A stretch of DNA of 64,000 bases, from assembly GCA_020847735.1 (NCBI GenBank), contig JADLBL010000001.1:124001-188000 (forward strand), read 5' to 3'. A program made the position numbers and the translations under genes. The notes under the pieces are model-generated. The model had not been told where the DNA came from. It saw only the letters and a program-made list of their open reading frames with translations, and made no database searches. Positions within the stretch are counted from its first letter, which is position 1; every line of letters starts with the position of its first letter. Positions 6,561-12,510 of the stretch are shown piece by piece. The stretch comes from Candidatus Eisenbacteria bacterium. GTDB lineage: Bacteria > Eisenbacteria > RBG-16-71-46.

Positions 6561-7616
6561 GTGAGCGTTCGCACGCTGGCCGAACTTGCCGCCGAGCTCG
6601 GCGGCGAAGTGGTCGGGGATGGCTCGATCGAAATCCGCGGCGTCGCGGGAATCCGCGAGGCGAAGAGCGGCGACCTGACGTTCATCGCGAACGCGCGCTA
6701 CGACGCCTACCTGTCGCAGACGCACGCATCGGCCGTGCTCTGCTCGCGCGAACCGCGCGAGGCGCGGGTGCCGCTGCTGCAGGTGGACAATCCCTACCTG
6801 GCGTTCCAGAAGGCCGTTCGGCTCTTCCGGCCGGAACTCTACCAGCCCCTGCCGGGCGTGCACCCGAGCGCGGTGGTTTCGCCGGCGGCCTCGATCGGCG
6901 CGAACGCCTCGATCGGCGCCCACTGCGTCCTCGAGGCGGGGGCGCACGTCGGCGCGAACTCGGTCCTGATGCCCGGCTGCTACGTGGGCGTGCAGGCGAC
7001 CATCGGCGAGAACACCCTGCTCTATCCGCGGGTCGTGGTGCGCGAGGAGTGCGTGATCGGCGACCGCTGCATCCTGCACCCGGGGGTGGTCATCGGCGCC
7101 GACGGGTTCGGCTTCGCCTTCGACGCCGGCCGCTATCACAAGGTGCCGCAGGTCGGGAACGTGGTGGTCGGCGACGACGTCGAGATCGGCGCGAACACGA
7201 CCATTGACCGCGCGACCACGGACGCGACCCGGATCGGCGACGGCACGAAGATCGACAACCTCGTCCAGATCGGGCACAACGTCGTCACCGGCCGCCACTG
7301 CATCATCGTCGCCCAGGTCGGCATCTCCGGCAGCACGATCCTCGAGGACCACGTCACCATCGGCGGCCAGGCCGGACTGGTGGGCCACGTGCGCATCGGC
7401 AGCGGCTCGATGATCGGCGCCCAGAGCGGGGTCACGAAGTCGGTTCCCGCGGGCGAGAAGGTGTCCGGCTACCCGGCCATGGCGCTGAACGCGTGGAAGC
7501 GCGTGACGGCCTATCTCATGCGCCTGCCGCAGCTGTTCGAGCGCGCCAAGGCCCTCGAGGAGCGCGTGGGCAAGCTCGAGCAGGAAAAGGAAAAGGAGAG
7601 GGAGGCCGTCCGTTGA
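6561..7616 (+). CDS. lpxD: UDP-3-O-(3-hydroxyacyl)glucosamine N-acyltransferase LpxD
   Basis: This cytoplasmic enzyme adds the N-linked hydroxyacyl chain in lipid A synthesis, the third step. The 351-residue protein has the N-terminal uridine-binding domain (about 1-100) and a left-handed beta-helix of hexapeptide repeats (about 105-310). NLVQIGHN carries the catalytic His at residue 239, the same number as in E. coli LpxD. A charged C-terminal helix ([13 protein letters not shown]) closes the protein. The start is GTG, 10 bp after ompH. Its stop overlaps the TTG start of the lpxC-fabZ fusion. Confidence 0.96.
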
Positions 7617-8932
7617 AGGGACGCAACCAGCGCACGATCGGCCGCGAAACCTCGATCGAGGGGGTCGGCCTGCACACCGGCGAGAAGGGCACGATGACGT
7701 TCAAGCCGGCGCCGGTCGGCCACGGCGTGCGCTTCGCGCGCGTGGACCTCGAGGGCGCGCCCGAGGTCCGCGTGCGGCCCGAGAACGCGCACTTCGATCC
7801 GGGCGCGGGCCGGCGCACGATCCTCCAGCAGGACGGGGTGCAGATCCACACCATGGAGCACGTGCTTTCGGCGGTCGCGGGCCTGGGGCTCGACAATCTC
7901 CGGATCGAGGTCAGCAGCATGGAGGTGCCGGAGGGCCACGACGGCAGCGCGTTGCCCATCGCGCGCGCGCTGCTGGCCGCCGGAATCGTCGAGCAGGACA
8001 AGCCGACGCGGCACATCAAGGTGACCAAGCCGGTCACCTGGTCCGAGCACCGCGTGGAACTGAGCGCCGTGCCCTACAGCGGCTTCCGCATCACGTTCAC
8101 GATCGAGTACGACCACCCGCTGATCGGCACGCAGACGATCTCGCTCGACATCACGCCCGAGGTGTTTCTCGAGCAGATCGCGCCGGCACGCACGTTCGTG
8201 CTCGAGCGCGACCTCGAGGTGCTGCGCCAGTCGGGCTGGATCAAGGGCGGGCGCATCGAGAGCGCGATCGTGGTCGGCGCCGACCGGGTGCTGAACGAGG
8301 AGCCGCTGCGCTTCCCGGACGAATTCGTGCGCCACAAGGTGCTCGACCTGCTCGGCGACCTGTTCATCCTCGGCGGCCCGTTGCTCGGGCACGTGACCGC
8401 CCGGCGCTCGGGGCACCACGGGCACGTCGAATTCGTCAAGGTGCTCAAGGAGACGCTGCCGCTGCCCGGACGACGCGCCGGCGGCCCGCCGGAGGAATGG
8501 GACACGACCGCGATCATGGACCTCATGCCGCACCGATACCCGTTCCTGCTGGTGGACCGCATCACGTCCATCGAGGAGGGGCAGAGCATCGAGGGCCTGA
8601 AGAACGTCACGATCAACGAGCCGTTCTTCCAGGGGCACTTTCCCGGCCAGCCGACGATGCCGGGCGTGCTGATCCTCGAGGCGATGGCGCAGGTCGGCGG
8701 CATGCTGATGCTGAACTCGGTGGAGGATCCCGCGAACAAGCTCATGTACTTCATGGGCATCGACGGCGCGCGTTTCCGCCGCCCGGTGGTGCCCGGTGAC
8801 CAGCTGCGCTTCCGGCTCACGCTGCTCAACGTCAAGCGGCGGACGATGAAGATGCGCGGCGAGGCGTTTGTGGACGGCCAGCTCGTGGCCGAGGCGGAGC
8901 TTCTCGCCACGGTCGTGGACAAGCGGCCGTGA
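7613..8932 (+). CDS. lpxC: Bifunctional LpxC-FabZ (UDP-3-O-acyl-GlcNAc deacetylase / hydroxyacyl-ACP dehydratase)
   Basis: This is a fusion of two normally separate enzymes. Residues 1 to about 290 are LpxC, the zinc deacetylase that commits UDP-sugar to lipid A: HTMEH gives base/ligand pair E82/H83, and [10 protein letters not shown] and RSGHHGH supply the other metal and catalytic residues. From about 295 to 439 lies Fab[12 protein letters not shown] carries catalytic His307 and LILEAMAQ carries Glu356. The predicted start is TTG at 7613, overlapping the lpxD stop and preceded by a GAGAGGGAGG-type ribosome site. It aligns with the usual LpxC N-terminus; an in-frame upstream start lies inside lpxD. 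Such fusions are known from Bacteroidetes and relatives. Confidence 0.95.
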
Positions 8933-9714
8933 GCGCGGGCGGCGCGGGGATCCATCCGGCCGCGTTCGTGGACCCGAGAGCGAAGCTCGGCCGGAACGTC
9001 TCGATCGGCCCGGGCGCAATCGTCGGCCCCGACGTCACCCTCGGTGACGGCACGCGCGTGGACTCGCACGCGCTCGTCACCGGCTGGACGACGATCGGCC
9101 GCGACTGTCACCTGCATCACGGCGCGGTGGCGGGCTCGCCGCCACAGGACCTCAAGTACCTCGGCGAGCCGTCCTTCCTGGTGATCGGCGACCGCACGGT
9201 GATGCGCGAGTACGCGACCGCCAACCTCGCCACCGAACCGGGTTTCACGACCCGGATCGGCAGCGACTGCCTCCTCATGGCGTACTCGCATGTCGCGCAC
9301 AACTGCCAGATCGGCGACCGGGTCGTGATCGCCAACGCGGTGCAGATGGCCGGCTACGTCGTCGTGGACGACTGGGCGATCGTCGGCGGCGGCACCGTCG
9401 TCCACCAGTTCACGCGCATCGGCCGGCACTCCATGATCGGAGGCGGTTCGCGCATCCCGCAGGACGTCGCGCCGTTCGTGAAGGCGGCGGGCAGCCCGCC
9501 GCGAAACGCCGGGATCAACTCGATCGGGCTCGAGCGCCGCGGCGTTCCCGCGCCGACGCGCGCGGCGCTGGAGGGCGCCTACCGGGTCTTCTTCCGCGAC
9601 GGCCTCACCGCCGCGCGCGCCGTCGGGGAAATTCGCGCGCGCTGGCCGGGCATCCCGGAGGTCGAGCACTTCGCGCGCTTCTGCGAAACCTCGGTGCGCG
9701 GCATCTCGCGCTGA
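8929..9714 (+). CDS. lpxA: Acyl-ACP--UDP-N-acetylglucosamine O-acyltransferase LpxA
   Basis: This enzyme transfers the first 3-hydroxyacyl chain to UDP-GlcNAc or an amino analogue. The 261 residues form a hexapeptide beta-helix plus a C-terminal helical domain. SHVAHNC carries the catalytic His124, equivalent to E. coli His125. By manual alignment the site of E. coli His144 is Tyr143, and the chain-length site Gly173 remains Gly172. The region that usually reads near TIxRGT is TANLATE here, an unusual substrate-site loop. The start GTG overlaps the lpxC-fabZ stop by four bases. The neighbours are a Gfo/Idh dehydrogenase and lpxB. Confidence 0.95.
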
Positions 9715-9725
9715 AAGGAGACCTC

Positions 9726-10709
9726 GTGCAGCCGGTGCGTTGCGGTGTGTGGGGGGTCGGCGTCTGGGGGGAGAAGCACGCCCGCGTCTACGCCGCGATC
9801 GCCGAGGCCGAGCTCGCCGGCGTCTACGACCGCTCGGCCGAACGCGCACGGGCGGTCGCGAAGGAGTACGGCACGCGCGCGTTCGACTCGCCGGAGGCGC
9901 TGCTGCGCGAGTGCGAGGCGGTTTCCGTCGCGACCCCGACGATCACCCACCGCGAGGCGGCGGAAGCGGCGCTCGCGGGCGGCTGTCACGTGCTGGTCGA
10001 AAAGCCGATGGCCGCGACGGTCACCGAGTGCGACGCGCTGATCGCCGCGGCGGCGCGTGCGAACCGGGTGCTGCAGGTCGGGCAGGTGGAACGATTCAAC
10101 CCGGCGCTGATGGCGGCGCGCCCGTTCCTGCGGACTCCGAAGTTCATCGAGGGGCACCGCATGGCGGCGTTCCAGCCGCGCTCGCTCGACATCGACGTCG
10201 TGGGCGATCTCATGATCCACGACATCGACGCGGTCCTTCACCTGACCGGCCGGTCGCCGTCGCAGGTCTCGGCCGTCGGGGTGGCCGTGCTGTCGAGCAC
10301 CGAGGACATCGCCAACGCCCGGCTCGAGTTCGACGACGGCTGCGTCGCCAACCTGACCGCCAGCCGCGTGTCGGTCGAACGGCTGCGGCGCCTGCGCTTC
10401 TTCCAGGACGACGCGTACGTGTCGGTGGACCTGTTCGAGAAGTCGGGAGAGGCGTTCGTCATCCGCGATCCCGGTTCGTTCCGGCCCGGGCAGGTGAACC
10501 CGCTGTCGCTGCTCGCCGGCATCCAGCGCACGAAGCTGGAGGTCGGCGGTGGCGAGCCGCTGACGCTCGAGCTGCAGGCGTTCCTTCGCTCGCTGCGCGG
10601 CGAGGGTGAAGGCGCGGCGCCGGCGCGGGCGGGACGCGAGGCGCTGCGCGTGGCGGAGGAGGTGCGCGAGGCCATGCGGCGCCGGGCGCTGCAGTGGGCG
10701 GAGCGCTGA
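9726..10709 (+). CDS. Gfo/Idh/MocA-family NAD(P)-dependent sugar oxidoreductase, possibly GnnA-like
   Basis: This 327-residue two-domain dehydrogenase has an N-terminal Rossmann fold (GVWGVGVWGEKHARVY) and the conserved EKP motif with Lys93 (VEKPMAAT), then the Gfo/Idh C-terminal domain. It sits inside the lipid A operon between lpxA and lpxB. In Acidithiobacillus and Leptospira that context hosts GnnA, which oxidises UDP-GlcNAc at C3 so that the aminotransferase GnnB can make the 3-amino sugar. No gnnB is present in the window, so a GnnA role is only suggested. The start is GTG, and the 3' end overlaps the lpxB start by 16 bp. Confidence 0.8.
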   Translation: MQPVRCGVWGVGVWGEKHARVYAAIAEAELAGVYDRSAERARAVAKEYGTRAFDSPEALLRECEAVSVATPTITHREAAEAALAGGCHVLVEKPMAATVTECDALIAAAARANRVLQVGQVERFNPALMAARPFLRTPKFIEGHRMAAFQPRSLDIDVVGDLMIHDIDAVLHLTGRSPSQVSAVGVAVLSSTEDIANARLEFDDGCVANLTASRVSVERLRRLRFFQDDAYVSVDLFEKSGEAFVIRDPGSFRPGQVNPLSLLAGIQRTKLEVGGGEPLTLELQAFLRSLRGEGEGAAPARAGREALRVAEEVREAMRRRALQWAER

Positions 10710-11848
10710 GCGTTCCCGGCGCGCGGGAGGCGCGTCGCCTGCTGATCGTGGCCGGCGAGGCGTCCGGGGACCACCATGCGGCGAACCTGCTGCGGGCGCT
10801 CGGCGCCCCCGGTCGCTTCGAGGCGCGGGGCGTCGCCGGCCCGCAGCTGCGCGCCGCGGGCGCGCAGGCCATCGTGCGGCAGGAGGAGCTGGCGGTGATC
10901 GGCTTCAGCGGAATCCTGGCCAAGTTGCCGGCGCTGCTCGGCGCGCGCGCCAGGCTGCTCGGCGAATGCGCGCGCTGGCGGCCCGACGCGGCCGTACTGG
11001 TGGACTATCCCGGCTTCAACCTGCGGCTCGGGCCGCAGCTGCGCGCGCGCGGCGTGCCGGTCTTCTACTACGTCGCGCCGCAGGTCTGGGCGTGGCATCC
11101 CGAGCGGGCGGCGCAGATGGCGGCGTGGGTGAACCGTCTCGCCGTCGTCTTTCCGTTCGAGGAGCCGCTCTTCCGGGAGGCCGGGGTGCCGACCACCTTC
11201 GTCGGCCACCCGCTTCTCGACGATCTCGCGCCCGAGGTGGACGCGGACACGCTGCGCCGCGAGCTCGGTGCCCCGCCGCACGCGCGCCTCGTGGGCCTGC
11301 TGCCGGGCAGCCGGGCCGGCGAGATCGCGCAGCACGCGGCGACGCTGGTCGAGGCCGGCCTGCGCGTGCGCCAGCGTCACGCGGACGCCTTCCCGGTCGT
11401 CGCCCTCGCCGACGGCGCCTCGCTCGACGTCCTGCCGGCCGCGCTGCGCGGCGCGCTGCCGGCGGTGCGCGGGCGCACGAGGGCGGTGCAGGCGCACGCG
11501 GCGTGCTGCGCCGTCGCCTCGGGCACCGCGACGCTCGAGACGGCGCTGTTCGGGACTCCGCTGCTCGTCGTCTACCGGGTCGGCTGGCTCAACTGGCAGA
11601 TCGCTCGCCGGCTGGTGACGCTGCCGCACATCGGCCTGCCGAACATCGTCGCGGGCGCTTCGGTGGCGCCGGAGCTGCTCCAGGACGCCTTCACGCCCGG
11701 GGCCGTCGCGGAGGTGCTCGGCGGCTGGCTCGCCGATCCGCGGGCGCTCGGCGCCCGTCGCGCCGCGCTCGCGGGGCTGCGCGACCGTCTCGGCGGGCCC
11801 GGAGCTTCGGCGCGCGCGGCCGCGGCGCTCGCGGAGATGCTGGCGTGA
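10694..11848 (+). CDS. lpxB: Lipid-A-disaccharide synthase LpxB
   Basis: This inner-membrane-associated GT19 glycosyltransferase condenses UDP-diacylglucosamine with lipid X. The 384-residue protein carries the family start RLLIVAGEASGDHHAAN, the YYVAPQVWAWHP motif, VGHPLLD and LLPGSRAGEI, and a C-terminal VASGTATLE segment that fits the nucleotide-binding half. Its substrate lipid X would come from LpxH, LpxI or LpxG, none of which is encoded in this window. The start is taken as GTG 10694, overlapping the upstream gene. Confidence 0.95.
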   Translation: MGGALSVPGAREARRLLIVAGEASGDHHAANLLRALGAPGRFEARGVAGPQLRAAGAQAIVRQEELAVIGFSGILAKLPALLGARARLLGECARWRPDAAVLVDYPGFNLRLGPQLRARGVPVFYYVAPQVWAWHPERAAQMAAWVNRLAVVFPFEEPLFREAGVPTTFVGHPLLDDLAPEVDADTLRRELGAPPHARLVGLLPGSRAGEIAQHAATLVEAGLRVRQRHADAFPVVALADGASLDVLPAALRGALPAVRGRTRAVQAHAACCAVASGTATLETALFGTPLLVVYRVGWLNWQIARRLVTLPHIGLPNIVAGASVAPELLQDAFTPGAVAEVLGGWLADPRALGARRAALAGLRDRLGGPGASARAAAALAEMLA

Positions 11849-12510
11849 ACGCGGTCCGCCAGCCGTGGTGGATCGGCGTGGCCGCGACGCTCGGCGCCGC
11901 GGCGCTGTGGCTGCTCGCGCGCACCTGGCGGATCGAGGAACGCAACGCCCCCGAGTTCGAGGAGGCGAAGCGCAGCCACGAGCCCGTGATCTACGCCTTG
12001 TGGCACGCCCGCCAGCTGCCGCTCGTGTATGTGCATCGCGGCCGGGGCACGGTGGTGCTGGTGAGTCAGTCGCGGGACGGCGAGCTGATTTCGCGGATCC
12101 TGGCCGCCTTCGGCTCGCAGACGGCGCGCGGCTCGAGCACGCGCGGAGGCGATACGGCCGTCCGCGAACTGCTCGCTGCGGCGGCGGCCGGACACTGTCT
12201 CGCGATCACACCGGACGGGCCGCGCGGGCCCGCCGGGCGGGCGAAGCCGGGGTTGCTCCAGGTCGCCGCACGGTCCGGCCTGCGCGTCGTGCCGCTCGCA
12301 TCGGCGGCGCGCCGCTCGTGGGTGCTGCGCTCGTGGGACCGCTTCCGGATCCCGCAGCCGTTCGCGCGAGTGTGCGTCGCGCACGCGGCGCCGATGGCGA
12401 TCACGGCCGCGGACGACGCCGGAACCCTCGAACGCGAGCGCGCCCGGGTCGAGCGCGCGATGGACGAGCTCACGGCCGAGGTGATGCGCCGCGCGGGGGA
12501 GTCGGGGTGA
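11845..12510 (+). CDS. DUF374 late acyltransferase, LpxJ-like
   Basis: This 221-residue protein has one N-terminal hydrophobic segment and the DUF374 acyltransferase signatures: LWHARQLP (Trp53-His54) and TPDGPRGPAGR (Asp124). DUF374 includes LpxJ, the secondary acyltransferase of lipid A described in epsilonproteobacteria. No LpxL/LpxM-type gene is visible. The position between lpxB and waaA, with four-base overlaps at both ends, makes a role in lipid A late acylation likely. Acyl donor and position cannot be read from sequence. Confidence 0.85.
   Translation: MNAVRQPWWIGVAATLGAAALWLLARTWRIEERNAPEFEEAKRSHEPVIYALWHARQLPLVYVHRGRGTVVLVSQSRDGELISRILAAFGSQTARGSSTRGGDTAVRELLAAAAAGHCLAITPDGPRGPAGRAKPGLLQVAARSGLRVVPLASAARRSWVLRSWDRFRIPQPFARVCVAHAAPMAITAADDAGTLERERARVERAMDELTAEVMRRAGESG

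Follow-up and report, generated by a model that had tools for sequence, protein, structure and literature searches.

The gene between lpxA and lpxB in a 64,000-nucleotide stretch of Candidatus Eisenbacteria DNA (the whole of which is called the window here) is, by sequence, predicted fold and phylogeny, a gnnA. It stands alone in its operon and a DegT aminotransferase of the GnnB type is encoded elsewhere in the genome, an arrangement (solo gnnA with an unlinked GnnB-type DegT) that is the rule in Eisenbacteria and Acidobacteriota. We consider it likely, with a probability of about 0.8, that GnnA works with such an unlinked GnnB-type partner in trans to yield a lipid A with amide-linked chains on a 3-amino sugar.

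The window gene encodes a GnnA dehydrogenase

The product of the gene belongs to the Gfo/Idh family by Pfam (PF01408, 1.9e-31) and its top sequence match in the PDB is 7bvj (6.3e-63, 216 bits; 63 bits for the next match), described in its entry as GnnA of Acidithiobacillus ferrooxidans. The fold, predicted with a mean pLDDT of 93, also matched 7bvj best (E 1.8e-36, TM 0.87-0.94, about 41% identity), the next protein being found at 2.2e-22. The signature RLAxFxPRSxDxxVxxDLMIHDxD is kept, whereas WbpB has RVNLG...ALWSFAPHD instead. Moreover, the 28 columns that do not vary among 25 GnnAs, both linked and solo, including the EKP (E92 K93 P94, catalytic lysine motif) and MIHD-D motifs, are all held in the window protein. 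In a tree of 136 proteins, it is placed apart from WbpB, within a GnnA clade of 92 rows (support 99) that spans the GnnB-linked GnnAs of Pseudomonadota and the solo GnnAs of six phyla (Acidobacteriota, Verrucomicrobiota, Planctomycetota, Gemmatimonadota, Bacteroidota and Spirochaetota). WbpB-type proteins fell nearly all outside this clade; the two that fell inside, placed as GnnAs, are fragments or variants lacking the motif. Named relatives at 80% identity are Candidatus Eisenbacteria. Since the best sequence and fold matches are both 7bvj, the signature is kept and the clade support is 99, we regard the gene as a genuine gnnA. The sequence-only reading, which had placed a GnnA-like dehydrogenase between lpxA and lpxB, is therefore borne out by sequence, fold, tree and operon.

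gnnA is embedded in a conserved lpx operon

The features of the locus are collected in Table 1. The gnnA open reading frame is intact and has a GTG start codon preceded by a strong Shine-Dalgarno sequence; its 3' end overlaps lpxB by 16 bases when the proposed GTG at 10694 is taken as the lpxB start. The genes form a tight operon in the order lpxD, lpxC-fabZ, lpxA, gnnA, lpxB and DUF374, flanked by bamA- and ompH-like genes on its upstream side and by waaA- and lpxK-like genes on its downstream side (open reading frames assigned by reading). No DegT aminotransferase gene is found within the lpx operon of the window. In every Eisenbacteria genome read whose contig continues, gnnA lies 3' of lpxA, and because this order recurs across genomes the arrangement cannot be put down to chance.

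Table 1. Features of the lpx operon in the window and candidate partner gene in the same genome (G000)
Feature	Position	Strand	Evidence
lpxD	6561..7616	+	PF04613 4.3e-20, hexapeptide repeats
lpxC-fabZ fusion, ORF as listed	7493..8932	+	PF03331 6.2e-89 and PF07977 6.4e-38, single frame
lpxA, UDP-GlcNAc acyltransferase	8929..9714	+	NF003657 322 bits (cut-off 226)
Shine-Dalgarno AAAGGAG of gnnA, first base shared with last base of lpxA stop codon	9714..9720	+	sequence
gnnA, UDP-GlcNAc 3-dehydrogenase (Gfo/Idh/MocA), 327 aa	9726..10709	+	Pfam PF01408, 7bvj match, GnnA clade
lpxB, lipid A disaccharide synthase	10694..11848	+	PF02684 2.3e-76; TIGR00215 above cut-off
DUF374 gene, lysophospholipid-acyltransferase-like, 3' of lpxB	11845..12510	+	PF04028 2.3e-27
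GnnB/WbpE-type DegT, candidate partner	G000:C12:48125-49210		PF01041 6.5e-122

Other features of these loci deserve mention. In the window, lpxC and fabZ share one reading frame, a fusion familiar in Bacteroidota, and its true start is probably near 7610 and not at 7493. In many Acidobacteriota (e.g. L355 5299-6141), an lpxI-like gene, named by eye, separates lpxA from gnnA. The GnnA frames at G077:C24, G097:C4 and G100:C75 each contain one in-frame TGA, reflecting either a sequencing error or a broken gene.

The window LpxA is the sole LpxA of its genome: a search of this genome for a second copy, as in Capnocytophaga, returned LpxD as the only other match. The catalytic His125 (E. coli numbering) is kept, while His99 is replaced by Asn and His144 by Tyr, two residues common to the LpxAs of the window's family; the Gln73 motif is unchanged. 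We considered such residues as markers of UDP-GlcNAc3N use and dropped them, as residues 99 and 144 vary among GnnA-linked LpxAs and the His99 to Asn change is frequent in them, not constant. In Leptospira, the selectivity of LpxA for UDP-GlcNAc3N is determined by a backbone turn at Gln68, and the E. coli LpxA has been reported to accept both sugars.

The genome encodes one DegT aminotransferase of the GnnB type

Two full-length DegT genes are present in the window genome (99.6% complete), one on contig C12 (Table 1) and one at C20:79459-80535. A genome search for a DegT-family GnnB, the check proposed by the sequence-only reading, yields the C12 gene as its one WbpE/GnnB-type candidate, so that the description "without GnnB" holds for the operon and fails for the genome. 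The C12 protein carries the invariant PLP lysine K192, is 46-47% identical to the GnnB encoded directly after GnnA in Limnohabitans, and resembles WbpE in sequence and in predicted fold, with Tyr (YYP) where WbpE has His308. It is encoded on a different contig from gnnA and, because it is not beside gnnA, we label it GnnB-type and not GnnB.

The C12 gene forms a trio with two neighbours that encode a dehydrogenase of the WbpB type and an acetyltransferase of the WbpD type; next come genes for a sensor kinase and a regulator resembling NtrC, and an lptE-like gene. This trio (L195 6258-9222, on G000:C12) is kept across the window's family, flanked by a menG-like gene and by the kinase-regulator-lptE-like-leuS row, and the setting resembles a core locus more than it does an O-antigen cluster. 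The trio recalls the WbpB-WbpD-WbpE enzymes of the UDP-GlcNAc3NAcA pathway of Pseudomonas, with the differences that the window gene itself is not a wbpB and that the C12 DegT has Tyr and WbpE His at position 308. The window genome also encodes UDP-sugar 6-dehydrogenases, which could supply the usual substrate of the WbpB trio; their presence did not settle to which pathway the C12 DegT belongs.

GnnA and GnnB-type DegTs co-occur in Eisenbacteria and Acidobacteriota

Among 26 Eisenbacteria genomes with a completeness of 90% or more, GnnA was found in 25 and a GnnB/WbpE-type DegT in all 26. The one genome without GnnA (G014) is also without lpxA, and the contig carrying both is therefore probably missing from the assembly. 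Of the 25 GnnA-bearing genomes, 24 yielded a DegT in which YYP occupies the WbpE His308 position, the exception being family f10 (G031, 95% complete), in which GnnA is present and the only DegTs seen are HYP-type or ArnB-type. In the three genomes of genus g17 (G023, G037 and G077), one Y-type DegT is kept beside an AsmA-like gene, and a search at E 1e-25 found no WbpB-type dehydrogenase. In family f5 and in G034 (family f11), the YYP DegT likewise stays in a neighbourhood without WbpB and WbpD. In family f5 (L205, L206, L207, L239, L240 and L248), it sits in a conserved row of cytochrome-like, deoxyhypusine-synthase-like and AsmA-like genes (named by eye), away from WbpB-type genes.

The same picture was obtained for Acidobacteriota, where GnnA was found in all 60 genomes sampled and a GnnB-type DegT in about 58 of them; G082 and G085 gave weaker DegT matches only, ArnB-like or untyped. 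Typing of 38 acidobacterial DegT genes gave 34 YYP and 4 HYP. The compact genomes G118, G121, G083 and G098 have one or two Gfo/Idh candidates and a single DegT, which is YYP. When 28 acidobacterial GnnA loci were read, lpxA was near GnnA in 20 and a DegT in none. Linked GnnA-GnnB pairs are confined to Pseudomonadota in this sample and solo GnnA is the commoner form. Y-type DegTs were not seen in some solo-GnnA MAGs (G048, G049, G051, G066 and others), which together with family f10 counts against the pairing; the exceptions are, however, mostly MAGs. It should be noted that DegTs of the WbpE/GnnB type are widespread among bacteria and that these counts come from GnnA-bearing groups.

The Verrucomicrobiales genome G048 (L186, L194; L052) encodes GnnA and two lpxA genes, as in Capnocytophaga, and a search of it at E 1e-30 gave no DegT of the GnnB type. 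In contigs titled Akkermansia muciniphila (L060, L072 and L077), a solo GnnA precedes lpxB; these contigs come from metagenome bins whose species name may be wrong.

Y-type DegTs mostly form one clade

The Y-type DegTs of solo-GnnA genomes, that of the window genome included, fall mostly in one clade (29 rows, support 97), and a second tree built on a different sample recovered a Y-type clade of 23 rows (support 90). This clade is separate from the main clade of linked GnnBs and from an HYP WbpE-like group that includes the WbpB clusters, while some Y-type DegTs of Acetobacteraceae, compact Acidobacteriota and flavobacteria fall elsewhere. Because the branching among DegT groups lacks resolution, the C12 DegT cannot be named GnnB by the tree alone. 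The position of WbpE His308 sorts most cases, not all: two of the linked GnnBs carry HYP, and some Y-type DegTs adjoin WbpB. WbpE Arg229 (the NSR arginine) was also tried as a marker and dropped, since most family members retain it and it is uninformative.

Proposed pathway and alternative explanations

The reactions, the partner and the final lipid A structure given here are inferred, the GnnA step from the enzyme family. GnnA would oxidize UDP-GlcNAc at C3 with NAD, converting the 3-hydroxyl into a 3-ketone, from which the unlinked DegT, most likely the C12 protein, would form UDP-GlcNAc3N. LpxA, encoded directly 5' of gnnA, would then transfer a 3-hydroxyacyl chain onto that new amino group. 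The steps of LpxC, LpxD and LpxB would follow as usual and give a lipid A whose chains at position 3 are amide-linked. A partner acting in trans is favoured because the genome holds a GnnB-type DegT and because co-occurrence is nearly complete in Eisenbacteria and Acidobacteriota. Since the C12 DegT belongs to the WbpB-WbpD-DegT trio, its main job in the window's family may be the synthesis of another 3-amino sugar. It is conceivable, at somewhat below even odds, that in this family one 3-aminotransferase acts in two envelope pathways, on the WbpB product towards a sugar resembling UDP-GlcNAc3NAcA and on the GnnA product towards lipid A. The 3-amino lipid A predicted for all Acidobacteriota and Eisenbacteria would then depend, in this family, on a gene that surface-glycan synthesis also uses.

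GnnA could conversely act without any aminotransferase, its 3-keto sugar having some other fate, such as being reduced again with inversion of configuration or entering a regulatory side branch, and the C12 DegT working for the WbpB-WbpD trio alone. Such a scheme would fit the facts that GnnA has a fixed place in the lpx operon and the DegT has none, that in the window's family the DegT comes with a WbpB-type dehydrogenase of its own, and that a few solo-GnnA genomes such as G048 show no GnnB-type DegT. We nevertheless hold it to be improbable, given the nearly complete co-occurrence in two phyla and the retention of the DegT both in genus g17, where no WbpB-type gene was found, and in compact genomes poor in Gfo/Idh candidates; to our knowledge, no lipid A with a 3-keto-derived sugar of that kind has been described. 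The same co-occurrence led us to discard the notion of solo GnnA as the mark of a new enzyme. Even less probable is that the partner of GnnA is the C20 protein: although it is one of just two full-length DegTs in the genome, its nearest PDB relatives are the ArnB 4-aminotransferases, it is 31-37% identical to linked GnnBs, and its surroundings look like envelope polysaccharide genes.

It might also be argued that the pathway is a relic, gnnA being kept by its operon position while lipid A is still ester-linked; LpxA can be lenient, as reported for the E. coli enzyme, so that a change in LpxA would not prove use of the amino sugar. However, the window protein conserves the columns that are invariant among the 25 GnnAs, and 25 of 26 relatives as well as 60 of 60 Acidobacteriota carry the gene, which argues for selection on gnnA and makes a relic very unlikely. 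Least credible of all is the accidental presence of another Gfo/Idh enzyme, whether an inositol or generic sugar dehydrogenase or WbpB: the NCBIfam matches to iolG and others that might suggest it are weak and all below cut-off, whereas GnnA is far ahead in fold (1.8e-36 versus 2.2e-22) and in sequence (216 versus 63 bits) and the tree separates the protein from WbpB. The most probable reading is the usual GnnA/GnnB chemistry, with GnnA assisted in trans by a GnnB-type DegT.

Comparison with known systems

The GnnA of A. ferrooxidans (7bvj/7bvk) and that of the window share family, fold and active-site signature. The A. ferrooxidans gene also lies between lpxA and lpxB, with gnnB next to it, whereas in the window genome the GnnB-type gene is on another contig. 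Unlinked genes are found in Mesorhizobium loti MAFF303099, of a genus with GlcN3N lipid A (PMC5644692); there gnnA is outside the lpx cluster, while that of the window is inside. The alphaproteobacterium Granulibacter bethesdensis, whose GlcN3N lipid A was established by chemistry, has a gnnA 44% identical and two gnnB candidates 37-39% identical to those of A. ferrooxidans, under separate accessions (PMC8036547); these candidates are not proven by mutation. GlcN3N-GlcN hybrid lipid A was likewise shown by chemistry in Capnocytophaga canimorsus (PMC3342949), which has two LpxAs compared to one in the window genome, and in Zunongwangia profunda (PMC9470727). Their flavobacterial relatives Mesonia and Eudoraea encode a solo GnnA with a Y-type DegT elsewhere.

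The surprise at a solitary gnnA that the sequence-only reading implied is therefore unwarranted, since unlinked gnnA and gnnB are published (PMC5644692, and by implication PMC8036547) and solo gnnA is commoner here. Its suggestion of an aminotransferase encoded elsewhere, on the other hand, gains support from the GnnB-type DegTs found on C12 and in almost every GnnA-bearing relative. An operon without gnnB need not mean a pathway without gnnB, and the Y-type DegTs now constitute a candidate aminotransferase subgroup named as possible GnnB. No lipid A structure for Acidobacteriota or Eisenbacteria was found in the literature searched. If the proposed pathway is true, 3-amino, amide-linked lipid A would be no rarity of a few lineages but the expected form across Acidobacteriota and Eisenbacteria.
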